DNA of 64,000 nucleotides, from NCBI GenBank assembly GCA_037042185.1, contig JAXQJY010000021.1, forward strand, positions 1-64,000, written 5' to 3'. Origin of the DNA: Sordariomycetes sp. S80-01Y (lineage: Eukaryota > Ascomycota > Sordariomycetes). The notes beneath the pieces were generated by a model. That model was given only the letters and a program-made list of their open reading frames with translations. It was not told the origin of the DNA and did not search any database. This document shows positions 2,944-43,252 of this stretch, one piece after another; position 1 is the first letter of the stretch; each line of letters starts with the position of its first letter. A program made the position numbers and the translations under genes.

Positions 2944-4199
2944 TTAGGCAGGGCGAGCACCGGCCATCCACATGAGCAGGCCAGGAGACTTGCTGCGTTT
3001 GCGCGAGTGGCTCTTCTTACGCACCCACTCGAAGCGGGGGTCATCGTCGTAGTGGTGGTGGTGGCTCTTCTCCTCAATCAAGAGAGCCTTGCCTCGCTTC
3101 TTGCGCAGCTCACGGGTGTGCTTCCAGAGGTCGTTCTGCTCCCATTCTGGAACCCAGCGCTTGATGAGCACGTAGTCGGCGTCCTGACAGATTCGATTAG
3201 CACGCGCAGTCCAGGCAAGTGTATCACACGCTGACACGGTCTTACCTGGTCCCAATCCCATTCGATGTGGAATTGACGCAGCGTCTCAATGGAAAGATGC
3301 TTCCGAGGCATGCGGGTATACATCGGTCGGCTCAAGGTCTGTTGGTTCTGAGCCTCGGCCTCAGCGGCGCGGACCTTCTCCTTCTTCATGATTGCCGCAA
3401 TGTCCTTCTCGTCAACACCAGAGGCCACAAGCTGCTCCTGGAGACGGCGTTGGTATTCTTTGTCAGCAAGCTCCCTCTCCTCGCGCTCTTTCTTGATGCG
3501 CTCAGCCTCCTTCTGCTTGTACCGCTCGACGGCCAAGTCGGCCTCTTTTTTCCGTCTCTCTTCCTCCTCGGCAGCCTCCTGCTCCTCCTTCAAACGCTTG
3601 TGCTCCATCTCCTTCTTGATGCGCTTCTCCTCCTCAGCCTGCTTTTCGCGGCGCTTGATTTCGTCCAGCTCGCGCTTGGCCCGTTGAAGCTCGGCATCGT
3701 CAGAGTACTGCTTCGCGAGACGACGCTCGTCCTTGTCCTTGGCCTGAGACAGACGCAGTCTTTCAAGCTCCATCCTGGTGTGCTCAGCCTCCCACTCGGT
3801 CTTCGCCAGGCGAGTGCGGTCCCTTGACCGGGACCGGGAGCTGGACGGCGATCGACGTCGCCGGGTCATCTGCCGGTTGCGGTGTCGTTTGTCATAGTCA
3901 GGCTCAGAGTCAGAAGAGTAGTCGTTGTACATATTGTTGTGGATGATGACGGGCTGTGGTTGAGGAGCAGGTGGCGCCTCGGGTGGGCTGTCGCGACGGC
4001 GGTCACGGGATCGCGAGCGCGAGCGAGAGCGTACAATGACTGTATCCCGCTGCTGCTCTGGCGACAACCAGGCCGGAGCAGCTTCATAACGAGGGCGAGG
4101 GGGGCTTCTCTGAACGTAACGTACTGGCGCAGGTCGAGGTGAGTGACCGCGATGGCGGACATGGACGTTGAAGTCCTCGTCGTCATCGTAATAACTCAT
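2944..4199 (-). CDS. RS-rich coiled-coil protein with DUF8035-like C-terminal domain
   Basis: Two exons read on the minus strand, 4199-3246 and 3183-2944, giving 397 residues. The 62-bp intron (GTAAGA donor, GCTAATC branch, CTGTCAG acceptor) is phase 0. The N-terminal third is Arg/Ser- and Pro-rich, with RSRSRSRSRDRRRD and RRRRSPSSSRSRSRDR tracts. The middle, about residues 130-280, is a continuous Lys/Glu/Arg helix predicted to be a coiled coil (repeats of EEEKRIKKEM, EEEERRKKEAD, KEREEREL). The C-terminal part, from about residue 295, has SRPMYTRMPRKHLSIETLR, a DADYVLIKRWVPEWEQ block and a basic tail. I recall this arrangement from filamentous-ascomycete DUF8035 proteins. The RS tracts suggest a nuclear, RNA-linked role, but that is inference. 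The function is unknown. Confidence 0.78.
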
Positions 4200-5654
4200 T
4201 GTGAGATCCTCGGCTGGGCTTCCCGGCTGACGTGCTGTAGTAATCCTTGCGACTGACTACGGGGACTAACTGCAGGAGAAGGCGGCTTGATATCCCCACG
4301 CGACGTATAGGGCCAAACAGCACCGTGTTCAATGAGGCCACAGCACAAGACGGCAGTGCGAGGATGAATGAAGAGGGCAAACAAAAACGCAGGGAGGGGA
4401 AAATGAACTATGCAAGCGTGCTGACAAGCGAGGCAGGGGAGCGAGCTATTTCTGTAGGACAGTCATCGCGGAGGGGCTCCTCAAGGCCGGACCACCGAGG
4501 AGGAGGGGCTGGTTTCTAGCGGCCGATGCCCATGCTGCTGAGCAATGAAGACCGATAATCCATCTCAGGTGGGGAGGACCAGGGGGTGAAGCACGGCTGA
4601 CTCGGACCAATTGACGATGGTGACGATGCAGATGGAGCGGGTCGCGCAGCGCTGACCTCGTAGGGCTGGCAGTGACTGGGGGCTGGGACGTTGCATGCGC
4701 CAGCGAAACGCCGGACGACAAGCGCAAGCGGTAAGACGCTGGTTCGAACTGTTGGTTGGGCGCTCTTTGGTAACAAAGATGGAAGCAATTGCAGCCAACC
4801 GCACAAAGGAGCGCCCGACGCGGTTCAATATTGCCCCCAGGCGTCGCCGAGCTAGCTGTTGCTTCTGGTCGTGCCCTCTGCCCGTTCATTTTTGGTCACT
4901 GTAAGCCCTATCTCGGTTAGTCGGATCTGACATGTGTGGTAGCACGAGCCTGACCAAGCCGCGTGTGCGCCACATGATGTGGTCCGTGTACTCCGTACCC
5001 AATACCCAAACCCCTGTCGTCTCTGGTGAGCATGAAGCAGGAATCACAAGGCTCTGCCGAGCTGGGAGCGGGATAGCCCGCCTGGATCCATCAGACAATA
5101 GCATTGTGATTGCTGACACGATGTTGCCGTTCCTGGATCGACAACGTGTTACACATGAGTCCGATAGTGAGACCGCCATGAGCTGTTTTCATGAGCGCCA
5201 GTCTTGCGCAAAACGTGCTACTCGTCCCCGTCCCCTGTATGAGAGTATGTGCGCGGCATAGGGGCATGACTTCGGCCAAAGGTGATTTGATTGAAGACTC
5301 GAGCCTATCCCGGGCAACCTCTGTTGGTACCGAGCGAAGGGACCTCAACGCCATTGGACCTCCTCGGCGCCTAGACAATCCGTGTCGATAGGCGCCGCCT
5401 GCGGCCGACAATCTGACCCGAGGGCCACCTCATTTGGATCAGCCATCAACCGCGCGGCTGTGCCAAAACTTATTAAAAGAAACTCAATGTGGTCAGTGGC
5501 CAGATACACGGGTCCTTGCCCAATGCTTGCTTGAGGCCTCCCCACGAAGCCATGTGATGTGTCAAGGCTCGAGATCCGTGTGACAGGAACAACCCTTCCC
5601 CCAAACAACAATGACGTCTTCTTGTATCACAAAAATGATTGGATGGCGTCCCGC
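4200..5654. other. Intergenic, no gene seen
   Basis: A 1.45-kb stretch between the start of the RS-rich gene and the stop of PFD1. It contains open frames up to 147 codons on either strand (for example 4446-4889, minus), but they are low in complexity, overlap one another and have no family resemblance. It should hold the promoter of the RS-rich gene and the PFD1 3' UTR. Nothing else stands out. Confidence 0.5.
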
Positions 5655-6784: not shown

Positions 6785-8186
6785 TCAGAGCGTCTTGTTC
6801 TTCGAGACCGCGTGGCCGTTCCTCTTCTTGGAAGAAGTGTCGACCTCTTTCACGTAGCGTACTTCAGGTATCGACGTGAGAATGCGAGGCCAGTACAAAG
6901 CATATTTATCCTCTTCACCCTCCAGGCACCGTCGAAGCCATATACCCCACGTGATATAACAGTAAGCTGGTAGTAGTCAGTATCAGTCAAGTGGTCAACG
7001 TTTCACTAAGCATTTGCGCGTTCCACGATGCGGCTAAGCTTACCTCCTACATTAACTGTTAGTGCCTCCTCTGCCGGTTGATGTGAACAAGGGAACTTAC
7101 CAACACCAGTCATCAAATGCCACCAACCGTGACCTTCGAGCAGAATAGCCCAGGGAAGACCGATGGCTCGTCGAAAGCGACGGATTTGAGAGCAGAAAAC
7201 ATTGTCCAGATTCCAGATCGCGAAACCGCCGATGAATAAGATCAATCCTATGCCTCGTTAACACTTTTCGCCTAGTCTATAACCCGACAGAAGCTTACCA
7301 ACGGCGACCATTCTCCATACTTTCTTCAGTAAAGACTTCGCGTTTACGCTTCCGCGAGCTTCGAGAGCAGGTCGGAGTTGGGCTTCCATCACCCACATAC
7401 TGCGGAAAACAACGGTCGCTGTTAGACCAGCGTACATGACCTGGTGGAAAACTGGGTCTTTGGTCAAGTGATACCAAAGCTGCAACTTGTCAGTCAAAGC
7501 ACTATGTCGCGGAACTCAGTGCAACAGGAAAGCTCACGGTGATGAAGCCTGCCACGCCCAGGAGGCAAAGTCCTAGCATAATGGAGAAATACCGCGATCG
7601 CGAGTAGGCGAAGCTCGCGTACATCATCAGGCAGGTTGTGTAAATCATCGACAACTCGTCGACTAATTGCATCGGGTCTGCTTGGGTCAACGCGGTCCTG
7701 TATGTCGACGCTCCAATACAGTCGATGGTGAGTGCACTTGATGCTATCAACACTTACACTTCAATGTCATGTGAAATGAGATTGAGCCAACCCCCACAAT
7801 GATGTATCCCACGAAGGCGAGTATGAAAACGGTGTCATGCCCGTAGTTGATACAGTTCCGAATCCCCTTGAAGCCCAGCCACAAGAAAAGAGCATTTGTA
7901 GCAGTCTGCGTTCTTTGTCAGTCTGCTTCGGTGACTTCCTGGGGTTCTTCATGCGGCGGGCATGCGTCTGAGTGATGCGGGCGTTATCTCACATTGACTG
8001 CTTCTGCACAGTAGAATGACAAGGCGTAATCCTAGGCAATGTCAGCGTCGTTCCAGCGACTTCCTCGGTAAGCGATTTGCTTACTTCTTCACAGAAATTG
8101 AGCGTCGATGTCTGCTTTCCCCAGAAGCCGTGCCCGTAGTCTGGATAAGGCACCCGTAGGTTGCCGAGGAACCCGAGAGAGGCCAT
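6785..8186 (-). CDS. Alkaline ceramidase (Ypc1/Ydc1/ACER family), eight exons including a 3-nt microexon
   Basis: Minus-strand exons: 8186-8085, 8031-7993, 7905-7758, 7677-7538, 7479-7299, 7247-7101, 7046-7044 and 6966-6785, giving 313 residues (yeast Ypc1 is about the same). All introns are 51-87 bp with GT..AG ends. It is a seven-helix membrane enzyme of the ER/Golgi that hydrolyses (phyto)ceramide to sphingoid base and fatty acid. The catalytic set known from ACER3 is all here with the right spacing: Ser88, His92, Asp103 (GSISFHMTLKYPMQLVDE) and His243/His247 (EGHGWWHLMTGVGAY). The N-terminal WGKQTSTLNFCEEDY segment is also typical. Codons for Gly253 and Ala254 are completed only by the three-base exon GAG at 7044-7046. 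Without it the frame survives but the conserved Gly is lost. The acceptor at 7480 could alternatively lie 6 bp upstream. Confidence 0.92.
7044..7046 (-). other. Predicted 3-nt microexon (GAG) of the ceramidase gene
   Basis: On the minus strand the three bases GAG are preceded by an intron of 54 bp (7100-7047; GTAAGT donor, CTAAC branch, TGTAG acceptor) and followed by one of 77 bp (7043-6967; GTAAGC donor, TACCAG acceptor). The upstream exon ends in phase 1 (G), the microexon adds GA|G, and the last exon starts CT. This restores Gly-Ala in the family motif TGVGAY. Reading through the microexon's donor instead reaches a stop after 13 more codons. Confidence 0.75.
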
Positions 8187-9240: not shown

Positions 9241-12200
9241 AGAATGATGTCCTTACGAGGCCTTAGAGATCAAGCAGCCTCCCGTAGTACGATACACAAC
9301 TTCAAGATGGTACGAACCACAGCTATTTCAAACTCACAAATTGGTTGATTATTTATAAATTGCAGGGGTATATACATAAGGCACAAGACACAAGATAGCA
9401 AGCACTCCAATCACATCCATCAACTCGCGAAACCAACTCCGAATTGACGCCAACTTACTTCGCTAACAAATTTGGGCAGCGTGAAGTATTCCCCGAGCAT
9501 CTTGATTTGATTCAAAATATCCAATGCGCTTAATGACCTGAAATGTGCACTGTCTTCAATAATAACAATGATTTGCAGTATACCACTAATAATTACAGAG
9601 ATTGTAAACTAGAAGACCCGATCTTTAGACATAGTCACTGCTAATCCCCTCGAGAAGAGAAACAACAAAGTACTGCTAAGTAAGAGAAATGATTCGAAAC
9701 GCTTGATACAGATATCCTGCGCCACCCAGAAAGGTCACGTAGATCAACCCGATATAGCAACGAAGCCTGCTGATATTCAAAGAGAAAAAGACATGTAGAG
9801 CAATGAGATACTCATTGATATAAGACAATCCTACCTCTAATATAGAATATGTTCTCATTAAGTGAAGGGAACAGTGTTTATTTAGGGTTATCTGGCTTGG
9901 CTCTAAGACGTGAAAGTGGTGTAAGTTCAATTGCTGCATTGGCGGGTTGTTTGATACACTTGTCATTTGGGTTGCTTCTTGGAATTATTGAAACTACTGG
10001 GCCTAATGCTTTCGGCAGAGCGGATAACCACTCAAAGCATTTGTCTGTCGAATTGCCATGTCAGATTACAGGTGTCATCCATTATGTGAATTTGGACACA
10101 GCTTTTGAACTGATGGCGTGTCAACTGTACCATATGGTGGAACTACCTGTGAAAACAATGACACTACCCACCCGCTCATGAGCATATAGTGAAGCCATTG
10201 GATCATTGAGGAGCACAAGCAGGGAGACTCCCATTTATCCTCGTCACCCTATAATTCCAAAAAAAAAAGTAACAATAATACCTCGGCAGTGGAACGCTGT
10301 AAGGAAGTCCGACTTTTTTTTTTAAAAAAAATTCATCTTGGTATACTATCACACAACCTGGTGATTCGCTGCTTGTGATCTGGTCGAGACTCACTAGCAG
10401 AAAGCTTGGACTTGAATCGGAGACGTTTGCCCGATCCATCCATCCTCGCTTGGTACAGTCTCCGGTCTCCAGACTACTTCATAACACTGTTACTGGAGAA
10501 GTGCCATCTGGTTTCCTTGGAAAAGCTCATACGAATCTGAACCTGATTTTTACCTCGCCTCATTTGCGCACCTAGCAACTGATAAATACAACCCTGAATA
10601 TGAGCTTGACTCTACTACAGAGCGCTATGGTATTTCACCATAGCTTAAACCTGGCAAAAGACTCAACATTCACTGTTAAAAAAGGACTACCTGTGAACGG
10701 ATGATGATCTATGTATAGGGGTTATCTACTCTAGAATAAAGGCGTAAGTAATAGCATTGCTACATATTTAGTCTTGATACTCTCCGAGCTATTGCTGGTG
10801 GAAGTACACAGTGTTAGGTAGTGTCTTAATATAAGTCTCAGAAAAAGTTTAGCGTCTCTATTCATTCTCCTACGTGTAGTTAATTGCTCTTACCATTTGA
10901 TGTAATGAAGTACCGATTTAGAAGCTTCCTTCCTTCATTCAACATTCTTTCCAAGTTGGAACCCCATACACACTATATAATGCAATAACCCCATTTATAC
11001 TTGGGAAAAGTGTTATGAACACACCATGATATATTATTCGGGCACTATGATAAGATTCATATTGTTATTAGATAATGAGAAGGAGTGTGATCTAAATAAA
11101 GCCAGAGGCGCGTACGTTATGCCCTTTACGATCTAGCTAAGGTTGAATCCTTAGGGGCTGAAGATATTGGAAGTAATCAATATCGAAGCATCTATGGCTG
11201 TTTGTGTCGTTTCACGAATTTGAAGTATATAGTATCACTTACAATAGTCTCTTGGCCAAATTCTCTATCTGTTCGGATCTTAACGAACTAATGGAGACCT
11301 CATGGGTATTTTATTTCACTACCGTAATTCCTAGTTTGATAAGAGCAGGCAATAGTCCTCTAAATTTTCTCAGGAGCGAGCCGGCAGGAGCTTGCTCATA
11401 AGCTGCAGTACTTCGAGAAAATTTGCCGAAAGGTTAACAGAAGGCGATACGCATCGTACTGGGCAATAACGTCGTTCTGATCCGTCGCCGAAAGGGGAGC
11501 GAAGTGTGAAATTGAGGAAGCGACTAGTATCTCTGACAGAAGAACCCGGATTGGGTTTCTTTTCTTGTGCCATGGTAAAGACTATTCAAGCATTCGGAGA
11601 TCGCTCTAGTCATTAGGCTGCTGCTCCTTAGGAGTGCTATTCGCCACGGAGCTAGTAATTCAAGTATCAGAGCCGTACTAGAGTCTCCCTCTCTACAAGG
11701 CTTCCTAGCTTATATCACCGATTTAAAGTGTCCTAACTTTCAAATTTGACTTCCACCTGGAAAGGACCTTCGGGGGATCTAAATTGCTGTAATCTGTTAC
11801 AAGCTCCCCCCCGTTCGGGACTCATCTCGTCGACGGGCGCTTTGAGGTATTAGCGGCACTAACTAAGTAAACCTCTTTCTTTACTCAGTAGAGCAAGTCA
11901 TCGAGGTCATTCACAGTAGTATAAGTAGACTTACTGGGGTAGAAATGAGAGGTAGTTTAGGGCTAACGGTCGAGTTACAAAATAAGACAAAATTATATAT
12001 TCATGCATATAGCTTAGATAGCCACCGCTTTCAATTTTTAATTACGCGAGGGTTATCTATTTTATGTGCTAAACGTGACACAGTATCGTCCTTAATCATT
12101 CTCGCTGTTCTATACATTTACATAGGAGCATAGACTAAGTCGGGAAAAGCTCTTCAAGATTTTCCACAGACCACACCCTAAGATCAGAAGACTATCACTA

Positions 12201-15200
12201 AAATCGTTCTCATATAATGATGGTATTTCTAGGCGTCCTAGCTAAAACGCTCTGAGGTATCGATATATTATGCAGAACCTGCACAGAAACCAACAATTCC
12301 AACAGATGGACATGGAGCTTTTCCAATATATACACGAGCATCGCGTATCATTTTGAATGATACCTGGGAAGCATTTTTGCCAGATTCTCAATAGTTGGCG
12401 ATATGTGTGAGTGTGTAATCGAAGGGGTGTACAACACAGCTTGACTAAAACGAAAGTCGTTTTGAGATAAGAAGTACTAACAAGGAGAAGAGATTATAAA
12501 GAACGATTATCAACTAGACAATTATAGAATAGGGACTAAGCTACGATAAGCCTTGAGGAAAAGCTAGTTGTATTACCGCCACGTTACACTTTGTGAGCTA
12601 GGAGCGCAGGGCCGGAAATCGAGGTATCGCGTATGAAGTTTTGTTCGCTACATGTCTAGCTCCTCCAATTTAAATTATCCTAGGCAAACTGGACTTTTGA
12701 ATTAGGGTCTGTACTATTCTTTCTCTTTCTCTGGGACTACAGAAAAACGCCCGTATCATCTTATTTTATGTGGGGAGCCTACTCGCTAGCTTCTTTTGGT
12801 TACATAGGTGATCGTACTTATATAATGTTCTAAACCTGGGTTGTACCAAAAATTCAGAAGTATCTGATTATCGCACATCGCCTTTTTCAGCTAGCTATGT
12901 GATCGCGGCTTGTGACTCCTAGAGGCTCCTCGTCGTTCAGCCCTCCAGAATGCTTAGTGAGGGGCGGGTTTTCTAGTTATATACTTTCAGAAATGGGAAG
13001 CTATTTTACTTTCAGTACTTATCACGATAATCGCCTACTTTTCGACTTTACAATAGTTTATGCCGTAAGACTTATCTACTAAATACTTCATGGATAATAG
13101 TATTAGTACCGGCAGAAGACATCGAAGTGTAAAGGGGTATATGTTACTTGGCGATAAAGCTGTGTACTTCGACGTCTATGAGAGGGAACACGCTGTTATT
13201 TAGCCAAATAAAAAATAAGCTAATCAAGATGAAAAGAAAATAGAGAAAAACAATTTAGAGGTAATCTTACCAGTCATACAGGAGAAACGAAAAAGAACAG
13301 AGAAGAGAGTCCATCGCAAGGATATTAAGTGATCGGTGGGAAATAAAGCAGATTTTGTTATTGGTGATATGCCCACTTTATATATAGTAAGTAGTAATGT
13401 TAGACATAAGTATAGCGTAAAGATCCAAGGTCTTATCAGCTAGTCGACGTCTCCCGGCGACTTCGAACGGAGTGCCTTGATAAGGTTCCACTGTAATCAC
13501 TTGTACGCCCATATCTCCCTAGCTTCCTTCCTATGAGTATCTGTGTGCCAAGGAACCCGTTGATCAAAGAATCGATTCTTCCAGACTTTAGTACACGTAC
13601 CGCTGATTCACTATTGGGAAAGAAAGCTTTAAGGATTAAAGCTATCAATTAGCCATGGCATAAAATCCAGTAATCAGACATATTACATTTTTAGCTCAGG
13701 AGGTTGGAGTGTAAACCTTATAGTAGGTTTCAGAGCTGGGTAGCTACCAGAATAGACAATTAACAAGCCTTTAAGATACGCCTACTTGTATAAGTTCTTT
13801 TTGATTTTATACGAAGTGTCTTATAGTAGTCTTTTATTAGCTATTTCATCGCATGTAGAACGGGACTCTATTTATAAAACTAGCATGAGCCAGGTTTTCA
13901 TATTTCTAAGCGAGATTATATAATATATATTATGCTGATGCTATCCTGTCAGGATCTGGGTTACTAAAGAGAGTAAAGGGGTGCGACTAGAGGGAGGATC
14001 GCTGCTAGATCGCAACGTTGTAGCAGCAGGATAGTAGCTAGGGGGCATCTGGTGACTGTATTAATCTCTCGAGATTCTACGTTGCTGAGGCCCGTGGGCC
14101 GTCTTCTTATACATGTGTACATATGATCCGGCCGGGGATGTCGCCGCGGGGTCATCGCCAGGTCCCTGCGAGGTTCCTGACATATCCTAAAGCTAAAGAT
14201 GGGATCTTACTGGATTTCGGATTCCACACTCTTATCCGTTAATGGCTTTGTAAATATACTTCGGCCTAGGAGCTAGATTTTAGGTCAGTGCTATAAATCC
14301 TAATGGTCATGAAGTGATTGCCGGAGAAGAACCCCGACGTCGCTAAGGTATTCTTTTCATTTATGTGTATGTAGGACACGACTCTTATGAGCCTTTTCCA
14401 TAGAATATGCCGTTTTCTTTTCATGAATTCCAATGTGTTATTGGCGTTGTTTCGTTGCCCTTCTGCTGGCTATCTGGCCAGCGTTCAAGCTTAAGATTAC
14501 CGTTCTCTATTATCTAAGTATAGACACAACTTCTGACTACCTTAAACTCGCCTATTTACCCATACTTAGATTTATATGTTATCTTTACACCAATAGTGCA
14601 CGAAACTTCCTCGAATATTCAACTGGGCAGTTGATACACAGGTTTATGTACCCGATCCTGAATCCTGCCTTTCTACTCTGGATACACACACAATGCCTCA
14701 ATAACAAAAGCACTCACGCCGACCCATGTGAATAACTACAACTAACCAAGGCATTCCTCCTTGTGTGCTTGTTTTTGCGGCTGTATTTTCTCCGTCGTCG
14801 CCTTTCTCTAACTTAATCGGCTCGCCATACTGTCTAGCTGCATCTATATAAATTGCCATAAATCTAGTCCACATAATCCCATTGATACACCCTGGCTGCA
14901 GTCTTGTTCTGCTCACTAGCAGTGTTTGAATGTCCCAACTTTAGCTAAGCTTTGGTTTTCATGGCTATATATGTCACGCTACTTTAATCTTAAATCACTC
15001 GGCGGATATTTATCTTAGTACACTATTCCTGTGAGGACCTTTGAAAGACTGTTTATTGGAATTCAAGACTCTTCAAGTTTATTTGAAGCATGAGTACTTA
15101 TAGCAATCCTCTTGAGGCTTTTATTTCGAGAGTATTTCTCTAAGTAACTACTTATGTATCCACTCCCATACAATCAATATATTTAACAAAGTCCCAGTAA

Positions 15201-18200
15201 CCAAAAGCTCTCTCGTTAGCTGGACTCAATACACTTAACATTATTAGAATTCACACTAGTAACCAGAGTGGTGCTTCTGATGTTTTTGTGAAAATGCGTA
15301 TTTAAAACTATGGCTTAACAGCATGGAGTAATTAAATATATGCTATGATTGTCGACTATAGCGCCACCAGATTTAACATGATGTGACCTTATTCCCTGAG
15401 CAATACTCCGTGTAACTGTGTATTTGCTATTCTTTGATGTCTCACTTACATGCTAGTATGTTTTCTTGCGTTGACTCTCGAGTACTGAGGAGGTGCGCAA
15501 CTGGTTATGCAGCGGGCGTAGGACGCCTTGAGAAGATATTTGCTATTGAAAATGGCACTCTTTTTGAGCCTTCATCTCTATGCTCATTAACTAGTACCCG
15601 TAGAATAAAAGATTGTCTCCCCCTGTGTATTGCTCTGTGTAGAGATATTGCTTAGTGTGAATGTAGTTTTGCTAGTTATGAGTGAATGTATCGTTTACTG
15701 TGCTTTAACCTTTGGTTTCCTATCGGAATAAGATGTCTTGAGCTTTGGCTAAACTTTTGTGTTTCGCAGTTTTATAAGCACCATGACCATCATTGCAGAA
15801 TATTGTGGAAATATTCAATATTCAATAGGTGTTAGAACATATTCCTCCCTACGATACCGGAGACCATGTAGTAATGGTGATTATTGTCATGTAACCAACC
15901 AGTAGAAGACTCGAAAAATATATCAAGCTGTTATCATGGGCGTGGCTACGAAACTTTGCTCGGCCTAGAAGCTCAAGTTTGAGAAATGCTGGTGTTATTG
16001 TCTACCAGTTTACGTCAGTATTTGTGATCATGGAGATGAAACGAGAGAAGAGCGCCGGAAGGTATCAGGTTCTCATACTGTCACATAGAGAGATGTTTTG
16101 CGCAAAATAATGGGCTTTCTCTGACGCGACCTGAGGGCCAAACTTCGTAGGGATAGATAGCTGTGAGACACAACTCTGCACTGCCTACTACTAGAAAATA
16201 TTGATCAATGCGACAATGAACACAGAATGCTCTAAGTATCATTAAGCTACATGTTCTTAGGCAACATCTCTGCAAATGAAGTATAAGGAAGTCTTTTAGA
16301 CGCTTGAATGCAGAATATATGATGATACTGGAACTCAGCTTCGCCCTTAAAGCGCAGGGAGACTTGATAATTATCTACCTACTTTAGATACTAGGACGAA
16401 GAGGGTATGAATACAACCTAGTTTCTCCACTCCCATACTACATATATTTGAGTAGGGGTTATATGTTCAGACCATATATATATATTAAGAGTTATATACC
16501 TAATCAAGAGACCTGGAGATAATTTTAAAGCATTGTCTTATTTTTTTTTCACTGTTCTTAATATACCTTCTATTAGGTATGCCATCTCCTATACGGTTAG
16601 GAACCGCGCGGTGACCTAGCCGTGGGTTCAACGCGGCCACTGGGCAAGAATTACATGGGCATACGTATAAGAGGTCTGCCAAAGAATTTGGGCAACCTAG
16701 AACCTTTAGAGAACAATATAGTCATTAGTTATACCCTAGCTGCCATCCTATTATAGCGCTGCGTCGTAGTAGCGAACTTCTATCTAGTTACACCTCTCTT
16801 TAAAAGCCTAGGTTCTGATATATGTAGAACTATTAAAGAGTGTAGTGTCCTTAAGCGAGGAAGTAATAAGTTAAAGAAAGTAATATTTAACTAGTAAGCT
16901 ATTTAGTATCCTTTAAATACGTGTTGTAAACTATATCAAGTACTATATTTAGAAATATATACTTAAAGATTTCTTTATATTTTAAGACTCTGTGGGCAAT
17001 ACGTGACTGGTAGGAATCTTGATGTACTATACTTAGGGCGAGATATCGTCTACTACAGCGAGAATGAGAGTCTCTTGGAAATTTCAAATGATCGTGCTTG
17101 CTGGCTCCCTGATTATGACCCTACTCATCTTCACATTCAAAGGTACCTAGGTATGATTTAAAGTAACAGAATGAAATCAAAGTAATAGGACGAAAGCGTT
17201 AAACCCCCTCCGTCGACTAGCTCTACGGTCTTCATGAGTACTTCTTTCGAACCTGAAGTACCATAAGTAGAAGGGATATAGGAGTCTCCCAAGGTTGTAA
17301 ATGAAATGAAAATGATATATAGAAGTGAAGACATGTTGATAGCACTAAATTATAATGTAAATGAATTAAGTTCATTCCCGTTATGAGAATATAGTCGTAT
17401 TATTAGCTAGGTCCTTCTATCTTTGTTAGAACGCACTGTTATTACCCCTGATCTCGCGATCGGCGCCATTCCGGCTCGCTGCTACGCCCATTCCTAGAAC
17501 GGGATTCTGGTATTTCCCCCAATCTTGAGTATTGCTAGTTCATCGCCACTATATATTACATAGACCTGAATACCTTAATATGGCAAGATGCGTATGAATG
17601 CAGTATCGACACCAGCAGGAAGGAAGTGTGGTGAAGGTAATCCAAAACAGGTGTACTCTGAGCCCCTATAAAGTTCTTCACCAGAACTGTTCAACCCATG
17701 GCAAATAACTAATATCTAAATGCCCCAGCCATCAAGGCTCTCAAAGCTATCCTGATATCAAGTAGTCATTCCAAGCAGAGTCTGTCCCTATGGCACAAAA
17801 AGCAGGTGTCATTAATGTACGCGAAGAATGGGGGCGCAACTGATATATTTCCAAGCTTCCTGATCGCGGTTCTACTAAATTATCACCAATACCTTCTATT
17901 ATTCTTCAATGATAAAAAGCTTTTTTTCTATTTCTTCTGGACTGGCTTGTTTGCTCCAGCAAGTAACATTATAATGAACAACATTAACCATAGCTCTCGC
18001 ATGGTAAGCCCAACGGCTATATAGCTCTATAATGGCCATGGCCATATGTCACCATTTCTTTATAGCTTTGGGCACTACACGTGACGAACCTAATTTGATC
18101 TTTTTAGTCAGTTGGCAAAGTCAATGCGATCATGATATAGGGCAGGTTTCCTAAGGGGTTTCCCATCATTCGCAATCTAACTTACGATATACGCTATTTC

Positions 18201-18905
18201 CAGCAGCTTGGCGGATATCGTGTTCGATTCATCCTAAAGCAATTACCCTCGATAATGCGTGGTCTTGGCTGATTTTTTTCGGCTGGAATACATGGGCAGA
18301 CAACAATTTGCTCAACTAGCGCTATTACTGTATATATAACTCTACCGTGTTAGCGCGACAACTATACGGTATGTATGATCCAAAGAAAGATCTATGGTTG
18401 TAGTGCCTCGGAATAGAATAGAGCTGACATGGGACGTAACCTCCAACCTGTTTGCTTAAATCGCCGTGTTATAAAGTCTCATAGGTCGGCGGTTTACCGT
18501 TATTGTTATACTCGCTATCCTTTACTTGGCTTTCAGTCCTCTACCCTGTTGCTGCTTACCGTGTGCTATCTCGGCGAATTATGCCCGTGTAGCCGGAGAT
18601 ATAGTACGGTTAGTACTCGAGCCTGGTTTGGCAGGTACCTGTGGCCAAGACTCATTTGCTATAACTTAAGTCCTCATGTTGGTCAAATACCTGCTGTTGT
18701 GTAAGCCGCGATGAGTCACAGATGTCTCGACCTGATTAACTACGTGGGATGGTAGGCTACAGCCCACTAGGGACGTCAGAAGTTGATGCAAAGTCAAGAT
18801 ACCAGGGTTCTGTACCCTCTGAATGAGGCCGCCATTGATTATGTACCTTACACCCTGGGCAGCGAGCTCTGCCTCAACTATGTCAGGTCGTGATTGGCTT
18901 GTCCC
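9241..18905. repeat. AT-rich, gene-free block with RIP-like signature (about 9.7 kb)
   Basis: From about 9.24 kb the sequence becomes rich in A and T and in TpA steps, and stays so until a G run at 18906. No open frame exceeds 110 codons (9849-10181), and none of the predicted peptides resembles a known family. Hand counts on three 60-base lines (13021, 15001, 16681) gave TpA/ApT of about 1.3, 1.2 and 1.6, and (CpA+TpG)/(ApC+GpT) of about 0.4, 0.7 and 0.7. Those are values expected after repeat-induced point mutation. Small GC-richer islands remain (about 11800-11850, 13970-14180, 17450-17520). The likely origin is old, heavily mutated repeat DNA, but the family cannot be named: no terminal repeats, coding domains or target duplications are visible. 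Both edges are approximate. Confidence 0.7.
10259..10331. repeat. A and T homopolymer tracts
   Basis: An A10 tract at 10259-10268 is followed 45 bp later by T10 directly joined to A8 (10314-10331). The second forms a perfect T/A palindrome. Such tracts may be remnants of poly-A tails of decayed elements, but no element body is recognisable. Confidence 0.5.
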
Positions 18906-18927: not shown

Positions 18928-19485
18928 CGGCTTCTGGGTGCTCAGACTTAATGCCTGCTCACATTGTGAAGTCTGATTAGGGTTTTTGCTAAGCTTTGGG
19001 CGGCAAGGATGTTGTGAGTCTATCATCTCCAATAATGCATCATCGGAAACCTCCGCCGCCGGCTAATGAAGTTGGCTCACATTCAGCCTCAATTTTGACC
19101 ATGGTATTGCCCAGCATCTCCCAAGCTTCCCCGCGTGGGCACCATCCTGGTTCGTGGGAAAACATGTGCACTTTGCCCATTGAACGCTAAGACCACCAAT
19201 CTTGCCCTCGTTCGGCTGGGAATATGAATCGCCGATATGCACAGTTGGCGGTCTAGAAGCGTATGTTGGTGGCTGCGTTAATGATGGCCGGAGCATGTAG
19301 GTGCCGAGAAAGACGTATCTGGAAAGGACGCCGCGATGAGCGCCCCCCTCAATATGGTAGGAGGGAGTTGATATAAGAACACATTGATCCGTCTTTCCAG
19401 ATCTTCGAAACACATGCCTCGCGCTCCATCATAATACTTGTCTTGGATCCTGACCCTGTGGTACTTTGAGCAACACGCAATCATC
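18928..19485 (+). promoter_or_regulatory. Upstream region of the sugar permease
   Basis: About 560 bp of normal composition between the G run and the permease ATG. A CCCCGC (reverse GCGGGG) at 19129-19134 fits the SYGGRG site of the carbon-catabolite repressor CreA/Mig1. A single site is weak evidence, though the target would be sensible. No clear TATA box is seen. Confidence 0.35.
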
Positions 19486-21190
19486 ATGGCAAAGTCGGCC
19501 GAGGTACATGAGAGCCCGATCCAGGCCTCAACTACTGCTGTCGACTACGAGAAACCAGAACTCACGAACCGCTCCGGGACTAAGCAGTTGGCGGTCGAGT
19601 CTGTCGCCCTCGCAGACGCCATTGCCAAAGATGCCCCGAACTACAAGTCAGCTACGCAGATCAAGCTGTACGCGATGATGGCCTTATGCGTCCTGAACGG
19701 AATAATGAATGGCTACGACGGATCAGTCATGAGTGCCATTAATGCTATGGACCCATTCCAGGAGCGATTCAAGATTGGCATGACAGGTAACTTAAATGGT
19801 GCGGTCTTCTCAATCTACACTGCTGGTAGTATTTTGGGTAGCTTAGGTTGTGGCTATATAATGGACAGATGGGGCCGTCGCGCTGGTATGTTCTTTGGAG
19901 CTTCCTTCATCGTGCTTGGCTCTGCCCTCCAGGCGAGCAGCTACAACCTCCCTCAATTCATGATCGGGCGCTTCATCGTTGGGTTTGGGAACCCCATGTG
20001 TGCTACCACTGCAGCTGTATTCCTTGTGGAGCTGTCGTACCCTACCTGGCGCGGTTTGGCCGGTGGGTTGTATAATGTGCTTGGTTGGAACATCGGTGCC
20101 AACAGTAAGTCGGGTTTGGCATTCAGCCTATGCTTGCGCGCTAACGACGCCAACAGTTGCTTCGTGGTCTTGCTACGGTACCAACTACATCACCGATGAT
20201 TGGAGCTGGAGAATCCCGTACATTATTCAGCTGGTGTTCCCTACTGTCGTCGTTTGTCTCGTCTGGCTCGTCCTGCCCGAAAGCCCTCGCTGGCTATGGT
20301 CCCAGGGGGAAAAAGAAAGAGCCAAGGACATACTTACCAAGTACCATGGTAACAAGAATGGCGACTCGGCCCTCGTCAAGCTTGAGATACAGGAGATGCA
20401 GGAATCTCTCGAGGCGGAGCAGGAGGTGGCCAACAAGAACTGGAATTATAAGATCCTCGTGAACAACCGCCCCAATAGGCTTCGAATGTGGCTCTTGTTG
20501 CTTGTCGCAGTCTTTGCCAACTTTATTGGCGGCTCTGTCATTTCCTACTACCTCCCCGCCATGGTGCAAGGAATCGGCGTTACAGACTCGCGCCGTCAGT
20601 TGTTGCTGAACGGCATTAATACCATCATCTCCTTCGCCGCTGGCCTTTTCGGATCATTCTTCGTGGATCGCTTCGGCCGTCGCCCTCTCTTCTTGTGGGG
20701 AACGTTCCTCACGGGTCTGGTTTACATCCCAATCAACGTCCTCGCTGCCAGAGCTGAGCAATACGAGGAAGGTAGCATTCCGCGGTCCCAGGGCTACGCA
20801 TTCATTGCCATGATCTTCACGTACGGTATCTTCTGGGGTTTCTGCTGGACGCCGCTGCAAGCCTTGTACCCTGCCGAGATTCTCAACAACGAAATACGCG
20901 CTAAAGGCATGGGTGTCAAGGGGCTTCTCACAGGTCTTTCGAGTTATATCAATACCTATGGAACATCGGTTTCCCTCAACAAGATTGGCTGGAAGACGTA
21001 CACCATCTTCCTCATCCTGCATTTCATCCACAACGGACTAATGTGGCTATCTTGCGTTGAGACCAAGGGCCGCACACTGGAGGAAATCGATGAGATCTTC
21101 AATGATCCGAAGCCAGTAAAACGCTCTCTTCAAAAGACAGCCATTATCGCGGACCGGGGTGTAGGTATCCATATGAAGGACGAGGTTTAG
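19486..21190 (+). CDS. MFS sugar (hexose/lactose permease-like) transporter
   Basis: Two exons, 19486-20104 and 20157-21190, giving 550 residues. The 52-bp intron (GTAAGT, GCTAACG branch, CAACAG) is phase 1 and restores GANIASWSCYGTNYI. The product has twelve hydrophobic segments and the sugar-porter signatures: GCGYIMDRWGRRAG after helix 2, the PESPRWL motif after helix 6, DRFGRRPLF in the second half, and VETKGRTLEEIDEIF after the last helix. It is a plasma-membrane symporter of the fungal lactose-permease/hexose group; the substrate cannot be read from sequence. The start at 19486 (MAKSAEVHES) is the in-frame ATG nearest a typical hydrophilic N-tail. It is the first gene beyond the AT-rich block. 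Confidence 0.92.
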
Positions 21191-21687
21191 TCTAAAGAAG
21201 TGTATCACCAGTAGCTGCAAGAGGGACAAGCTGGTCAAGTTACTCATGTACATGCGGGAGACGGGATATGCAATTAAGCGAGCAAGCCACCGATGTCCCT
21301 GTTAGTGCTCGTGCCCTTCAGTTAGTGTGGTGCCAACGATGTGGAGTACGGAGTGCTGCTGAGCCTAAGGAACAATTAGGCAAATTGCCCCACATGCAGG
21401 TACCTGCCGCCAACCTAACGTCAGAGAGGATGCACCCTGGAATTTATTACAAGTTGTCCTCTTTGAAAGCCCACCTCCAACTCCGTCCGACTCGACACCG
21501 ACAGTTGGAGGCTGCATTGAGGCCACCTCACCCTTCAAGCGACCTTCTCCCGAGTAGACCTCATTTCTTTTCGTTTGGTGCACACGTTCGGGAAGCTCCT
21601 GTTTTATTCTCCATCCAAAACAACCTTGGTGTTCGGTTCCAGCCATCCTCGCAAACCGTAGCGCTTTCGCGCACCTCGCCATTCGAC
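21191..21687. other. Intergenic: LHS1 upstream region
   Basis: A 497-bp gap between the tandem permease and LHS1 genes. The LHS1 frame stays open upstream as far as 21268 (140 codons), but the added peptide has no chaperone character and would bury the signal peptide. It is treated as non-coding. No clear UPR element is seen. Confidence 0.5.
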
Positions 21688-24687
21688 ATGGTGTCCACAC
21701 GGAGGGTGTCGCCTCTGACAATGCTCCTTGGGGCTATCTTGTGCCTCTCGACGCATGTCTTCGCCGTATCAGCTGTGCTAGGCGTCGACCTCGGCACCGA
21801 ATACATCAAGGCAGCACTCGTAAAGCCTGGCGTCCCCCTCGACATTGTCTTGACAAAAGACTCCCGAAGAAAAGAGACAGCCGCCGTGGCGTTCAAACCT
21901 TCAAGAGGAGGTGTCCAAGAAGGTCAATATCCCGAACGACTGTATGGCTCCGATGCCATCGCTCTCGCCGCTAGATTCCCCGGCGAAGTCTACCCAAATT
22001 TGAAGCCTCTGCTCGGTCTTCCTGTCGACGACCCTGTCGTACAACAGTATGCTGCGCGGCACCCTTCGTTGCAGCTTCAGGCCCACTCCGACCGCAACAC
22101 CGCAGCATTCAAGAGCAACGCTATGTCAGAGAAGGAAGATGCCTGGTTAGTGGAGGAACTGCTGGCCATGGAACTCCAGAGCATCCAGAAGAATGCTGAG
22201 TTGGCGGCCGGCGAGGGCTCGACTGTGCGTTCCATAGTACTCACCATCCCTCCCTTCTACACGATTGAAGAGAAACGTGCGGTCCAGTCTGCCGCAGAAC
22301 TCGCTGGTCTAAGGGTTCTCAGCCTGATTAGCGACGGATTGGCGGTCGGCCTGAACTACGCCACAAGTCGGCAATTTCCAAACATCCACGAAGGTGCAAA
22401 GCCAGAATATCACATGGTTTTTGACATGGGTGCCGGCTCAACCAAGGCCTCTGTCCTGAAGTTCCAAAGTCGCAATGTCAAAGATGTTGGCAAATTCAAC
22501 AAGACTATTCAAGAGGTCCAGCTTCTCGGCAGTGGCTGGGATCGTACTCTTGGCGGTGATGCACTCAACAACTTCATTGTTGATGACATGATCAATCAAT
22601 TCGTTGAGTCCAAGGGCGCCAAGAAGGCTTCTGTCACCGCAGAGGGCGTTAGGGCACATGGTCGAGCGATGGCGAAACTTACCAAAGAGGCCGAGCGTCT
22701 TCGCCATGTACTCAGCGCCAACCAGAACACAGCCGCGAGCTTCGAGGGCCTGTACGAGGACGTAGACTTCAAGTACAAGATTGCTAGGACGGATTTCGAG
22801 GCAATGATTGGTATGCATGCTGCCAGAGTTGGTGATGCGATCAATGATGCCTTGAAGATGGCTGGTCTTGATATTGCGGACATTGACTCTATCATTCTGC
22901 ACGGCGGCGCGTCTCGTACGCCGTTCGTCCAGAAGGCTCTCGAGGCTGTTGTTGGATCTCCGGATAAGCTTCGCTCTAACGTCAACTCAGACGAAGCAGC
23001 TGTTTTTGGTGCTGGATTCCGCGCTGCTGAGCTCAGCCCTAGCTTCCGTGTCAAGGATATCCGCATCTCGGAGGGCTCTGCGTACCCTATCATCATGAGA
23101 TGGACCGGTGGTAGTGGTAAGGAGCAAACTCAGCGTCTTTGGACACCCATCTCGCCGATAGGCGGACAGGCCAAAGAGTTCACTTTCACTGAGGAGACTG
23201 ACTTTGCCACCACCTTCTACCAGCAGGTTGACAATGACTCTAAGGATTTCAAGTCTTTTGCCACCAAGAACCTCACCGCGACATTGGCTCTGTTAAGAGA
23301 GAAATACCCCTCCTGTGTCGACTCAGGCACCGTTCTCCGCGTTGGCGCTGAACTCAACAGTGAAAATGGCGAGGTCCAGATCGTTAAGGCAGCTGTAGAA
23401 TGCGAGGCTGAAGTCAAGGAAGGTCTGATGGACGGGGTCAAGAATCTTTTTGGCTTTGGGAAAAAGGATCAAGAACCCTCTGCAGAGGGTGAGAAAGGCA
23501 CAGGGACCGAGACCGTCGCTGACGAAGACAACCCTGCCAATAAAATAGGGTCGTCCTCTGCTGACGGTGAGGCGACTGGGACACCTTCTGACGATGCCAC
23601 GGATGCAGAGCTGCCTGGTTCCAGTGAGGACGTGAAGAGCGAGGCTCAGAAACTTGAGCTCGTCTCGATACCTGTTGAGTTCGCAATTGAGAACCTTGGC
23701 ACTCCTGAACTCACGAAGGGCCAACTGTCAGCCTCCAAGGATCGCCTCAAGGCCTTCGCGACCTCAGACAAAGCCCGCATTCAGAGGGAGGAAGCCCTCA
23801 ACCAGCTTGAAGCCTACACCTACAAAGTCCGTGACCTTCTTGAAGACGAGGCTTTCGTCGCCGCTTCTACAGAAGACGAGCGCGCCAAGCTCGGGGAGAA
23901 AAGTAGCGAGATCAGTGATTGGCTCTATGGGGACGGCGCTGATGCTCCCAAAGATGAGTTGAAGGCAAAGCACAAGGAGTTGACGGAGATGGCTAGCCCT
24001 ATCCAGAAGCGCGCTATTGAAGCTGAAATGAGGCCCGAGTTGCTCAACAAGCTCAAGGAGACTGTCAGCAAAACTTTTGAGTTCATCGAGCTCACCCGCA
24101 AGCATATCAATGAGTACGATGAATGGCACGCTTCTAACTCAGCTACCGCTTCCGAGGCCACAGAGACACCTTTGGATGAATCCAATGACCTTGAGGATGA
24201 GGCCTCCGAGAAAACGATGGAAGACGTCCTCGAAGAACGTGGTCCTGTGCCCCCTCTTTACAAGTACGAGGATCTCGATGAGCTCCAGAAGATTACCGCC
24301 ACTACCGACGAGTGGCTCAAGGAGATGGAGCAAGAGCAAGAAGCTTTGCCCATTACCACAGACCCCGTTCTGCTGGTCAAGGATCTCCAGTCCAAGCTTC
24401 AGAAGATCGAGATGGTCGGCAAGGACCTCAGTCTCAAGGGCGTAAAAAATTATGAGGCCAAGAACAAGAAAGCTAAAAAGGACAAGAAGAAGCCCAGTGG
24501 CAGCAAAACCGAGAGTCCTGAGCCGCCCCAACAGACAATTAAGGTCGGCGACCGATCTTTCAGCGCTGAAGAACTTGAAGACATGATTCAAGGCATGACG
24601 GAGGAGGACTGGAAGAAGGTAGAGGAGCAGGTGAGAGCCCAGGAGGCTCAAAAGGAGCAGGAGCAGCATGAGCATGATGAGCTATGA
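21688..24687 (+). CDS. LHS1: ER-lumen Hsp70-like chaperone LHS1 (GRP170/HYOU1 type)
   Basis: Single-exon gene of 999 residues. The N-terminus is a signal peptide (TMLLGAILCLSTHVFAVSA) followed at once by the Hsp70 ATPase start VLGVDLGTEYIKAAL. Further nucleotide-binding motifs are DMGAGSTKASVLKF (phosphate 2) and ILHGGASRTPFVQKAL (adenosine). Beyond about residue 590 come a beta domain with an acidic loop rich in Glu/Asp/Gly/Thr, then long charged helices, as in the large GRP170 group rather than in BiP. The C-terminus is the retention signal HDEL. Family role: nucleotide exchange on BiP/Kar2 and holding of unfolded chains during ER import and folding. I chose the ATG at 21688 because it places the hydrophobic leader at residues 12-28. 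Confidence 0.94.
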   Translation: MVSTRRVSPLTMLLGAILCLSTHVFAVSAVLGVDLGTEYIKAALVKPGVPLDIVLTKDSRRKETAAVAFKPSRGGVQEGQYPERLYGSDAIALAARFPGEVYPNLKPLLGLPVDDPVVQQYAARHPSLQLQAHSDRNTAAFKSNAMSEKEDAWLVEELLAMELQSIQKNAELAAGEGSTVRSIVLTIPPFYTIEEKRAVQSAAELAGLRVLSLISDGLAVGLNYATSRQFPNIHEGAKPEYHMVFDMGAGSTKASVLKFQSRNVKDVGKFNKTIQEVQLLGSGWDRTLGGDALNNFIVDDMINQFVESKGAKKASVTAEGVRAHGRAMAKLTKEAERLRHVLSANQNTAASFEGLYEDVDFKYKIARTDFEAMIGMHAARVGDAINDALKMAGLDIADIDSIILHGGASRTPFVQKALEAVVGSPDKLRSNVNSDEAAVFGAGFRAAELSPSFRVKDIRISEGSAYPIIMRWTGGSGKEQTQRLWTPISPIGGQAKEFTFTEETDFATTFYQQVDNDSKDFKSFATKNLTATLALLREKYPSCVDSGTVLRVGAELNSENGEVQIVKAAVECEAEVKEGLMDGVKNLFGFGKKDQEPSAEGEKGTGTETVADEDNPANKIGSSSADGEATGTPSDDATDAELPGSSEDVKSEAQKLELVSIPVEFAIENLGTPELTKGQLSASKDRLKAFATSDKARIQREEALNQLEAYTYKVRDLLEDEAFVAASTEDERAKLGEKSSEISDWLYGDGADAPKDELKAKHKELTEMASPIQKRAIEAEMRPELLNKLKETVSKTFEFIELTRKHINEYDEWHASNSATASEATETPLDESNDLEDEASEKTMEDVLEERGPVPPLYKYEDLDELQKITATTDEWLKEMEQEQEALPITTDPVLLVKDLQSKLQKIEMVGKDLSLKGVKNYEAKNKKAKKDKKKPSGSKTESPEPPQQTIKVGDRSFSAEELEDMIQGMTEEDWKKVEEQVRAQEAQKEQEQHEHDEL

Positions 24688-29509: not shown

Positions 29510-31088
29510 TCAAGCGACCTGGGGCCAGACAACTTCCCCACAATCGTCATGCTCCCGTGCCCACGCCTCGATCCTCTCCACCTCCCACCCGCTCGTCAAT
29601 CTTTCTTGGGTCATCAGATTCCTCGGCCTCCCCATCCTAACCGTCGAACTCAGTGAGCAAACGCCGCGATAGAAGCGCCACTGCAGACACTCCACTAGAC
29701 TCTTGCACGCCAGCTGACAGGAGTCAGGGCTCAGGTGAGCTTCCTTTTGGTACTGAGGGAGGCCCGTGGGACTCCGGACCTTGGAAGAATCAAGCCACGA
29801 GAATGTCTCTGCAGGCATGGACCAGTCAATTAGATGGACCCCGTCGCTCTGATTATCCCACAACCACCTGGAGTCCACGAGGTTCGGCCGAATGAAGGCA
29901 TTGAAGACGTCCTTGATGCGCATGGGCGACGAGTAACCACGCGAACGTTCAAGGGCGTCGAACTCTGATACTTCCTGACTGCCAATGTGATGCATCGTCA
30001 CCAGGGGCTGGCACCACTGCTTGGGTCCGTATTCCAATGTTCCCGCTTTCTCGCCATTGACGGTCGGCCACTACTTGAATCAGTTTGCAATCCACCGTCT
30101 AATCGCCCTACAGCGATGGACTTACCACGTTGGTTACTTCGACGCCCGTCTCGTTCTGCACAGCGTGCGAGAACAGAGCATCGCCACAACATATCTGCGT
30201 TGCCTGGAGATCATAGCCATTCGCTACGCTAGCCCTCACTCCAAACATATCCTTCATCAGCCCGTTGCTGACCAGGTATCCACTCCCGCCGTGTGCAAAT
30301 GGTAAATCTCCAAGCATTGCCCTACTGCCAGTGTAGATCTTCCCATGTGCATCGATGCGATTCAGCCACTCTGCTATCGTTGGCCAGATCACGTACGAAT
30401 CCGCATCAACGAACAAGTACCAGTCAAAACCTGGCCTTATTGCGTACGCTTTCTCCGCCATGTGAATGTTCTTGTACTTATCAAGAGCCCATCCTTCTTC
30501 TGCAAAATTTTCTTCCTTGTTGCAGGTCGCTTGATCTATCGGACAAGACTGTTGTCGTCGGTAGAGCTCGAAGTCCGGATGGTGACCAGAAAGCTCTGGG
30601 AGGACGCTGTTTAGACTATCGTGAACAGGTACATTGTCAATGATCTGAGCCATGTCGCTGAAAATGAGGAAGTCCTCTTTGCAGCGTAGGTTGGTGTTGA
30701 GGTGGGTTGGGATCTTGTTCCAAGCTTCCGAAGCTCCAGTCTTCATGATGAGGAGAATATTACTCGTATCCGGAAATCCCTCGCAGTCTGTCTTCGCTCT
30801 CTCCCTCATGCCCTCTGCCTGAGCTTTACGAAACTTGATACGTAGCTGTTCTAAGTTCTCGCCATACTCAAACCCCTGGCAAGCCTGGGTTTCATCGTCC
30901 GGACATATTTGTCCAAGTTGGGCAGCGCCGTACAGTATCATCCCAACGATGCCACATATCAAAAGCGCCCGGAGGACCAGCCTTTTCGGCCGGAGAAAGT
31001 TGGCCATGTGGTGTCTCAATGGAAGATCGCGAACATCGGAACTCGTCAGAGTGTTTGGTGGGGATTTGGCTGGGGGGAGGAGGGACAT
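29510..31088 (-). CDS. Fringe-like glycosyltransferase, family GT31, type II membrane protein
   Basis: Two minus-strand exons, 31088-30126 and 30070-29510, giving 507 residues. The 55-bp intron is phase 0 (GTAAGT donor, CAAGTAG acceptor). A short cytosolic tail precedes one membrane anchor (LRALLICGIVGMILYGAAQL, about residues 38-57), so the protein should sit in the Golgi with its catalytic part in the lumen. The catalytic domain has the metal-binding DxD motif as Asp-Ala-Asp in DWYLFVDADSYVIWP, and the fringe-type segments GWALDKYKNIHMAEKAY, FAHGGSGYLVSNGLM and ICCGDALFSHAV. The last 100 residues carry a PAN/apple-like Cys pattern (DSCQLACKSLVECLQW, then GVCSL). Fungal GT31 proteins of this shape are common; donor and acceptor sugars are unknown. 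Confidence 0.88.
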
Positions 31089-34930: not shown

Positions 34931-36655
34931 ACTGAAAATAGGTTGAAGAGCCTGGATTTCTGGGGCAAGTGGTAATTAATGGCATCGGTTGTTACTGCAT
35001 CACCGATATAGATGAGAATTTGGTTCATGAGGAATGAAGGACAGGTGCGGCAAAGGAACCAGGAAGTGGTGTAGACAAGGTCTGATTTCAGCTGCGATCA
35101 AAGCCTTGTTAATCAACTGTATCTCGAAGACCGCGGGCCTTACTCGCATGCTTCCCATGTTCAAAGAGAAGCCTTGTTGTCAGCCCAACGAGGCGTTGAA
35201 TTCAACGGGCTGCCGCGACGCTGGCTCGGTCTTAACCCCTTGTGGAGGCCCCGAGCAATCCTTTTGGTGAGGGTGAGGCAGTGCAAGCGGTTGATACTCC
35301 ACAATCTTGCGGGTCGTGATTGCCCACGTGCTCGATAATCTGTCGATCAATGAAATTGTATGACTCTTCGAGTGTTGACTGCCGCTGCCTTCCATGCTGG
35401 GGCGACCTAGTAGGGTGTTAGGCTGCCGGCCCGGTCGAGATATGAGCCTGTCTCGGCGGGGACGGAGCAAGCAGAAGTGGCTGTCAGACAGGTGATACAG
35501 GACCGATTCGAGCTCCTGCCGAAGCTGCGGCGTCGCCTTCTGATGCATAGTCGAGATGATGCCCAGATCATGAAAACCGCGGGAGCGAAGCACTTCGTAG
35601 AAATCGAAGCGTGGCTGTATGAAGAGTAAATATTCGGGTTACCACAGCTTGAAATGACTGTGCGTGCAAGCCCCGTCACATCGGAGCTACCCCTAAACCT
35701 TAATTCCCCATGCTTGAGGCTCCCAGTGGCGCCGATCTTGCCGCTGAGGTAATGGCAGGCCTGGATTATTCGGTACTTGGTACGTTATGTTCACTGTTGC
35801 GCGTATCCGAACATGCAGATGCAAGAAGGGGCGATGTCAGCCAAGAAGGGGGCTGTGCTTAGTAGGTCACATGGGGTTTGAATGGGTGAATGGTGGCATC
35901 AAAGGCAGCAAATGCATCGCCAGCACCGCCAAGCAGGATGCATCTTCTGGCCTGGGCGGTGTTGGTGATTGGCTTGAGGGGACTTGGTCGTGTCATTGAC
36001 TCTCGCTGAGCAGACGAGAGCGTTGAGAGTACCCCGTAAGGTTAAGGTGTCTTGCATTGCCTCACCGCGCGTCCCTCGTGCGCATTTGTTCAACGCTGTG
36101 GCCTTGACAGATGAGCGCGGTCGGCACACGGCAAGCGGCATGCGGCACCACGGCACCGCGGCTCAGTGGAGAGCGAAGAGGTGCGTGAGGGTGTCGGATA
36201 CGTCGTGTCAAACCAGTGACGCCCGGCTGCACTGAGATGGAAGCCAAACAGCTGGGGCCCCCGCTCGGCGCAGCTGGACTCCGAGAAGCCAAGAAGGCGC
36301 CAGATGCCCACCCTTGTCGCCTGCAAACACTGCCATTGGCCGCCTGGTGGTGGAGTGCAGCTGCCGCACACATCCATGCGCCGCTGGGCAAGAGCTTAGC
36401 ACGTTGTCGACGGGTGCTTCTGCCCCAGCCCAGCCTGAGGACGTCAGCTCTTCGTTTAGTCACGGTACTTTATTCCGAGCTGTATTCTGGTGGCTTATAA
36501 GGAAGGGCACGCTGCCACACGCCATCTCTTGTCGTCGCCATCTTCTTCCCAACGCTTTTTTTTATCAATACGAGTCGTCAGTTCCCCCACCACTCCAGTA
36601 AAGCTGTCCTACCTCGCATAGCAACCCGACCTCCCCCCACCACCCTAACTTCGAC
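34931..36655. other. Intergenic with one weak coding candidate
   Basis: A 1.7-kb gap. The minus-strand frame 35638-35180 is open for 153 codons and begins with a protein-like stretch (QPRFDFYEVLRSRGFHDLG), but it has no ATG start or supported upstream exon. The part from 36050 to 36450 is GC-rich with overlapping open frames on both strands, typical of chance. The remainder upstream of 36656 is the stomatin-type gene promoter, with a CT-rich stretch at about 36540-36655. Confidence 0.4.
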
Positions 36656-43058: not shown

Positions 43059-43252
43059 TCTGTTGACGATCTCTCCCTCCTTTTTAGCATGTCCTGTAGC
43101 TGTGTAGCATCGTTGCTCTCATTATCACCTGGAACCTTAGGCGCAATGGCGGAGATTCAATCAAGACCTTTACAAATGCAACGAGTCTTCTCGGCTGCAA
43201 TGGCTTTGTGTTATACATAAAAAGAACAAAGTATTCTACAATGATCGCTCCG

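Follow-up and report, generated by a model that had tools for sequence, protein, structure and literature searches.

The closest precedent for the candidate exon described here is a 1-nt exon in the CYP621A P450 genes of Fusarium, which, according to the excerpts of the source used here, is supported by 18 SRA reads, conserved in 20 orthologs and missed by nearly all gene models (PMC12940212). As in the present case, the organism is a filamentous ascomycete, and the tiny exon sits between two introns and completes the glycine codon of a conserved motif. The two differ in size, ours being a 3-nt exon (GAG) of a ceramidase gene, and in the effect of omission, which shifts the frame in CYP621A but not in the ceramidase. 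The RNA-backed Fusarium exon, as described in those excerpts, shows that fungal spliceosomes are capable of including exons of this kind. Xlr2 of Trichoderma virens, also a filamentous ascomycete, has a microexon that annotation missed; unlike GAG, it is 20 nt long and, in the part of the report cited, regulated by glucose (PMC11121469).

Outside fungi, exons of exactly 3 nt, the size of GAG, have been known in animals since the 1980s, for instance in mouse Ncam and Drosophila TnT (PMC8042270, cited from an extract), and there is one in human RPS24 (PMC12686416, likewise). Those of TnT and RPS24 are alternatively spliced by tissue or cell, whereas GAG, which lies among short fungal introns, is probably constitutive. 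In plants, the sections cited report coding microexons of 1 to 15 nt, mostly unannotated and backed by RNA-seq and by orthologs, whereas the ceramidase GAG is predicted from the DNA sequence; for the microexon of plant VPS55, an intron-retention form is known as an alternative (PMC8831610), similar to the intron 6 retention considered below. Fungal stwintrons are excised by U2 splicing reactions that follow each other at a single site, as is probably the case at our locus; in them, however, a splice signal of one intron is interrupted by the other, and no exonic base is left in between (PMC6616335, in the passages used).

Among the matches listed for the open-access literature, we found no fungal 3-nt exon and no 3-nt exon in a ceramidase; the matches listed by a search of the literature for the sequence motif look unrelated to ceramidases, judging by title and abstract. 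This kind of microexon is already known elsewhere, at least in the extracts cited above, and GAG is a further example rather than a new kind. A previous reading of this DNA, made from the sequence only, had placed a 3-nt exon near the lower size limit; this has to be withdrawn, because exons of a single nucleotide have been described both in Fusarium (PMC12940212) and in plants (PMC8831610), as far as the cited portions go.

The window, that is, the whole stretch of 64,000 bases analysed, has 52% G+C and contains no N; judging by its genes and its short introns, it looks like the DNA of a filamentous ascomycete. On its minus strand, at 8186-6785, lies a predicted alkaline ceramidase gene of 8 exons and 7 introns, with 313 codons plus a stop. 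Its exon-intron structure was set by hand, guided by the sequence of the family, and introns 1 to 7 measure 53, 87, 80, 58, 51, 54 and 77 nt, respectively. The exons, and the two introns that concern us most, are the following.

Exon 1, 8085 to 8186, minus strand: carries the start codon; the PF05875 match begins at protein residue 23.
Exon 2, 7993 to 8031, minus strand: 39 nt.
Exon 3, 7758 to 7905, minus strand: 148 nt; SFHMT metal-site region, aligned to ACER3.
Exon 4, 7538 to 7677, minus strand: 140 nt; DEL motif (Asp103).
Exon 5, 7299 to 7479, minus strand: 181 nt.
Exon 6, 7101 to 7247, minus strand: 147 nt; HxxxH metal motif (243-247); ends with HGWWHLMTGV and base 1 of Gly253.
Intron 6, 7047 to 7100, minus strand: 54 nt; GTAAGT...CTAAC...GTAG; branch A 12 nt from the end.
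Exon 7, the putative microexon GAG, 7044 to 7046, minus strand: 3 nt; last two bases of Gly253 and first base of Ala254.
Intron 7, 6967 to 7043, minus strand: 77 nt; GTAAGC...CTGAC...CCAG; branch A 10 nt from the end.
Exon 8, 6785 to 6966, minus strand: 182 nt; YCYITWGIW... through the stop codon.

In intron 3 (7757-7678, minus strand), the acceptor GCAG at 7678 is preceded by an internal TACAG; the ACER3-like spacing of KYPMQL requires the later acceptor.

The 313-aa product matches the Pfam family Ceramidase (PF05875) with 321.8 bits, for a cut-off of 32.5, and the match spans positions 1-258 of the 259 in the profile. It also matches human alkaline ceramidase 3 (ACER3; 6g7o), with E = 3.2e-44. 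The segments GSISFHMTLKYPMQLVDEL and HGWWH of the fungal protein align without a gap to GSWCFHMTLKYEMQLLDEL and HAWWH of ACER3. Ser77, His81, Asp92, His217 and His221 of ACER3 are given as active-site metal or catalytic residues in the part of the source cited (PMC9436119); placed on the alignment by hand count, they all have an equivalent in the fungal protein. The residue-by-residue comparison covered one relative, human ACER3. From these similarities, the gene product is predicted to be an alkaline ceramidase of the ACER3/Ypc1 type. A survey of fungal sphingolipid proteins from 2026 describes alkaline ceramidase as ubiquitous in fungi (PMC13161914); it has the word 'intron' once, among the references. 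No relative was found among viral contigs, genome contigs, plasmids and phages (by tblastn for plasmids and phages); five genome-contig stretches matched a pattern, and by tblastn none of the five encodes a relative.

The last base of exon 6, at 7101, is the first of codon 253, and GAG supplies the rest of Gly253. This residue and Ala254 belong to TGVGAY (consensus TG-x-G-[A/S]-Y), Gly253 being six residues past the second zinc histidine of HxxxH (243-247). The ACER3 counterpart is TGLGSY, and the alignment is ungapped through HAWWHILTGLGSY; the sequence-only reading had named a conserved Gly-Ala/Ser after the HxxxH helix of ACER/Ypc1 proteins. That reading had also described two good introns around GAG, of 54 and 77 nt, each GTAAG..AG and the first with a CTAAC branch, and here coordinates, lengths and sequences agree. 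In all seven introns of the gene, the donor is GTRAG, the branch site is YTRAC and the branch A lies 9-12 nt from the end, and on both sides of GAG donor, branch site and acceptor are complete, the structure of an internal microexon. Within 7134-6917, there are only two GTRAG donors, at 7100 and 7043. In intron 6, an AG that ends at 7056, 3 nt past the branch A, comes ahead of the GTAG that ends at 7047, and this AG is probably too near the branch A to be used. No repeat of at least 8 nt that might hint at their origin was found between or within introns 6 and 7 (6960-7110 searched). GAG is very probably a real 3-nt microexon of the ceramidase gene.

How far can other splicing schemes account for the same stretch? 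We enumerated all splice models in 7134-6917 that remove no more than two GT-AG introns, each 40-160 nt long, and found that 29 out of 534 are stop-free and in frame to CYITWGIW. Only three of the 29 open models keep the ACER3 spacing, and all three have a microexon (3, 9 and 7 nt). Among these three, the 3-nt GAG model is the only one with TGxG[A/S]Y, and also the only one with GTRAG donors. If the helix length is conserved, a microexon is therefore required, and GAG is the one with good sites. Among models with GTRAG donors, only the joint removal of introns 6 and 7 yields an ungapped protein alignment to ACER3 here.

Seven splice models were scored against PF05875. Inclusion of GAG comes first with 321.8 bits, and the nearest length-preserving rival is 3.4 bits lower (the two other length-preserving models score 318.4 and 314.2). 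Skipping of GAG gives 313.1 bits, use of the acceptor at 7056 312.6, use of the acceptor at 7071, which would require a 30-nt intron, 307.5, and retention of intron 6 304.0, with a match split in two. The earlier proposal that GAG completes the codons of Gly253 and Ala254 is thereby strengthened, since this model is the top Pfam scorer and the sole one among the 29 open models with TGxG[A/S]Y at the ACER3 spacing.

In one alternative, GAG is not used at all, and donor 7100 is joined to acceptor 6967 across a single intron, which yields TGVAY. It would use two strong splice sites and stay in frame; as had been foreseen, one residue is lost, Gly253. This loss falls where the alignment to ACER3 is ungapped. 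It costs 8.7 bits in Pfam, most of which may be the cost of the gap itself; because such penalties are partly gap cost, the Pfam differences put the models in order but say little on the degree to which Gly253 is conserved. Moreover, the resulting intron would be 134 nt long, more than any of the other five of the gene (51-87 nt), and the presence of a good acceptor and a good donor 3 nt apart would be left without a reason. We therefore consider the omission of GAG from the normal transcript as extremely improbable.

The main alternative is the retention of intron 6, a point absent from the sequence-only reading. The length of intron 6, 54 nt, is divisible by three, and the coding frame runs through it without a stop, so that exon 6 could extend to 7044, with intron 7 alone being removed. 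The protein would then have 331 aa, Val252 being separated from Gly-Ala-Tyr by the 18 additional residues GKFPCSHQPAEEALTVNV, and both ends of the motif would be intact. This model relies on the same strong donor at 7043, and is one that automatic annotation might pick. The mean codon score of intron 6 (-0.111) is also not out of reach for coding sequence: 20% of the 18-codon chunks of the gene's own exons score as low, as do 5% of chunks from five other long ORFs. However, the Pfam match drops from 321.8 to 304.0 bits and falls into two pieces. The insertion would directly follow the metal helix, at a point at which ACER3 shows no insertion, and it contains charged residues and is less hydrophobic than its surroundings (mean hydropathy -0.28, versus 0.36 for HGWWH...GIW). 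Furthermore, the retained stretch holds a full donor, branch site and acceptor, as in the other five introns. On balance, retention as the normal form is very unlikely.

We now come back to the inclusion of GAG and to how it might take place. Short fungal introns are recognised as units, a mode known as intron definition. Introns 6 and 7 would each be recognised separately in this way. With just 3 nt between the 3' site of the former and the 5' site of the latter, the two sites are probably not occupied together, and the introns would be removed in turn, either order leading to the same mRNA. Given that both introns are complete, and that GAG also constitutes positions -3 to -1 of the intron 7 donor, that is, its exonic part, exon definition should not be required. 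Inclusion of GAG would be constitutive. Splicing errors would have three different outcomes: a one-residue deletion if GAG is skipped, an 18-residue insertion if intron 6 is kept, and a premature stop if intron 7 is kept. For the last of these, the earlier statement that reading on past the intron 7 donor leads to a stop is correct: from 7043, translation ends after TGVGGKLSRIVERANA.

A stwintron reading of the intron pair was also tried. After removal of 7100-7047, the joint is GTTG-GAG-GTAAGC; we rejected this reading because intron 7 retains a whole donor and the two introns are separated by 3 exonic nt.

Alternatively, inclusion, skipping and intron 6 retention may be the branches of a regulated switch, giving different ceramidases, or a non-productive mRNA, depending on conditions. 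All three forms are in frame, and a glucose-dependent microexon, that of 20 nt in Trichoderma Xlr2, does exist according to the excerpt cited (PMC11121469). Against a switch, introns 6 and 7 are both ordinary and strong, and the residues that would be altered adjoin the metal helix, in a region ungapped relative to ACER3 and not in a loop of variable length. We regard such a switch as having hardly any likelihood, and the isoform switch at the microexon suggested by the sequence-only reading is unsupported. In its most far-reaching version, splicing at the zinc helix would be controlled between three outcomes (full enzyme, enzyme minus Gly253, enzyme plus 18 residues) so as to set ceramide turnover in the fungus, which is a very unlikely proposition.

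Could the intron pair around GAG have arisen by chance? We used a strict intron pattern (GTRAG, YTRAC, branch A 9-12 nt from the end, 45-120 nt), the limits of which follow the other five introns of the gene and were fixed with all seven already in view, and found 11 hits on the plus strand and 12 on the minus strand of the window, versus an average of 4.2 in random sequences, these being first-order Markov samples of window length and not exact shuffles. Eight of the 12 minus-strand hits are within the ceramidase gene, and seven of these are its introns. A single pair of strict hits 1-12 nt apart is present on the minus strand, the one around GAG, and there is none on the plus strand. In comparison, just one among 300 random sequences contained such a pair, and a 3-nt gap was seen in none of the 300. 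The probability that such an intron pair originates by chance is low.

With a loose pattern, hits are not enriched (80 and 85 on the two strands, versus 83 on average in random sequences), and pairs with a gap of up to 12 nt number 3 for the minus strand and none for the plus strand, versus 0.85 expected per strand. For a gap of exactly 3 nt, 0.06 pairs are expected per strand (100 random sequences). Two further loose pairs were seen on the minus strand, at 46082-45976 (6 nt apart) and 20824-20712 (4 nt apart). Both are absent under the strict pattern, the second is antisense to the plus-strand ORF 19964-21190, and they are probably due to chance.

This locus adds a probable 3-nt coding exon to those known, in a housekeeping enzyme of a fungus and in a context that closely resembles that of the 1-nt exon of Fusarium. 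If confirmed, it would support the idea that splicing of short introns by intron definition tolerates almost any exon size. It would also support the idea that fungal annotations will tend to put a false insertion or deletion in place of such exons. The locus offers a clean test, because the forms with inclusion, skipping and intron 6 retention can be told apart by length differences of exactly 3 or 54 nt, and all are in frame.

As for the rest of the window, a low-G+C tract of about 8.5 kb extends from 10001 to 18500. G+C is 0.39-0.42 per 2 kb in 10001-18000, versus 0.48-0.57 in the other 2-kb blocks, and no stop-to-stop ORF of at least 150 aa is found in 10001-18500. The TpA/ApT ratio and its companion dinucleotide index are markers of repeat-induced point mutation; in this tract they are 1.08, versus 0.62-0.76 elsewhere, and 1.04, versus 1.24-1.30, respectively. 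By its composition, the tract looks like old repeats hit by repeat-induced point mutation. Ten ORFs were scanned against Pfam. Two of them, 3078-4256 and 30108-31292, both on the minus strand, have no match at 1e-5; the eight others, within 25-2617, 19435-24687 and 36602-45323, have matches and are ordinary genes. The families matched are Dor1-like, mitochondrial carrier, sugar transporter, HSP70-type, Band 7, Nop (snoRNA-binding), ribosomal S15 and ribosomal S2.
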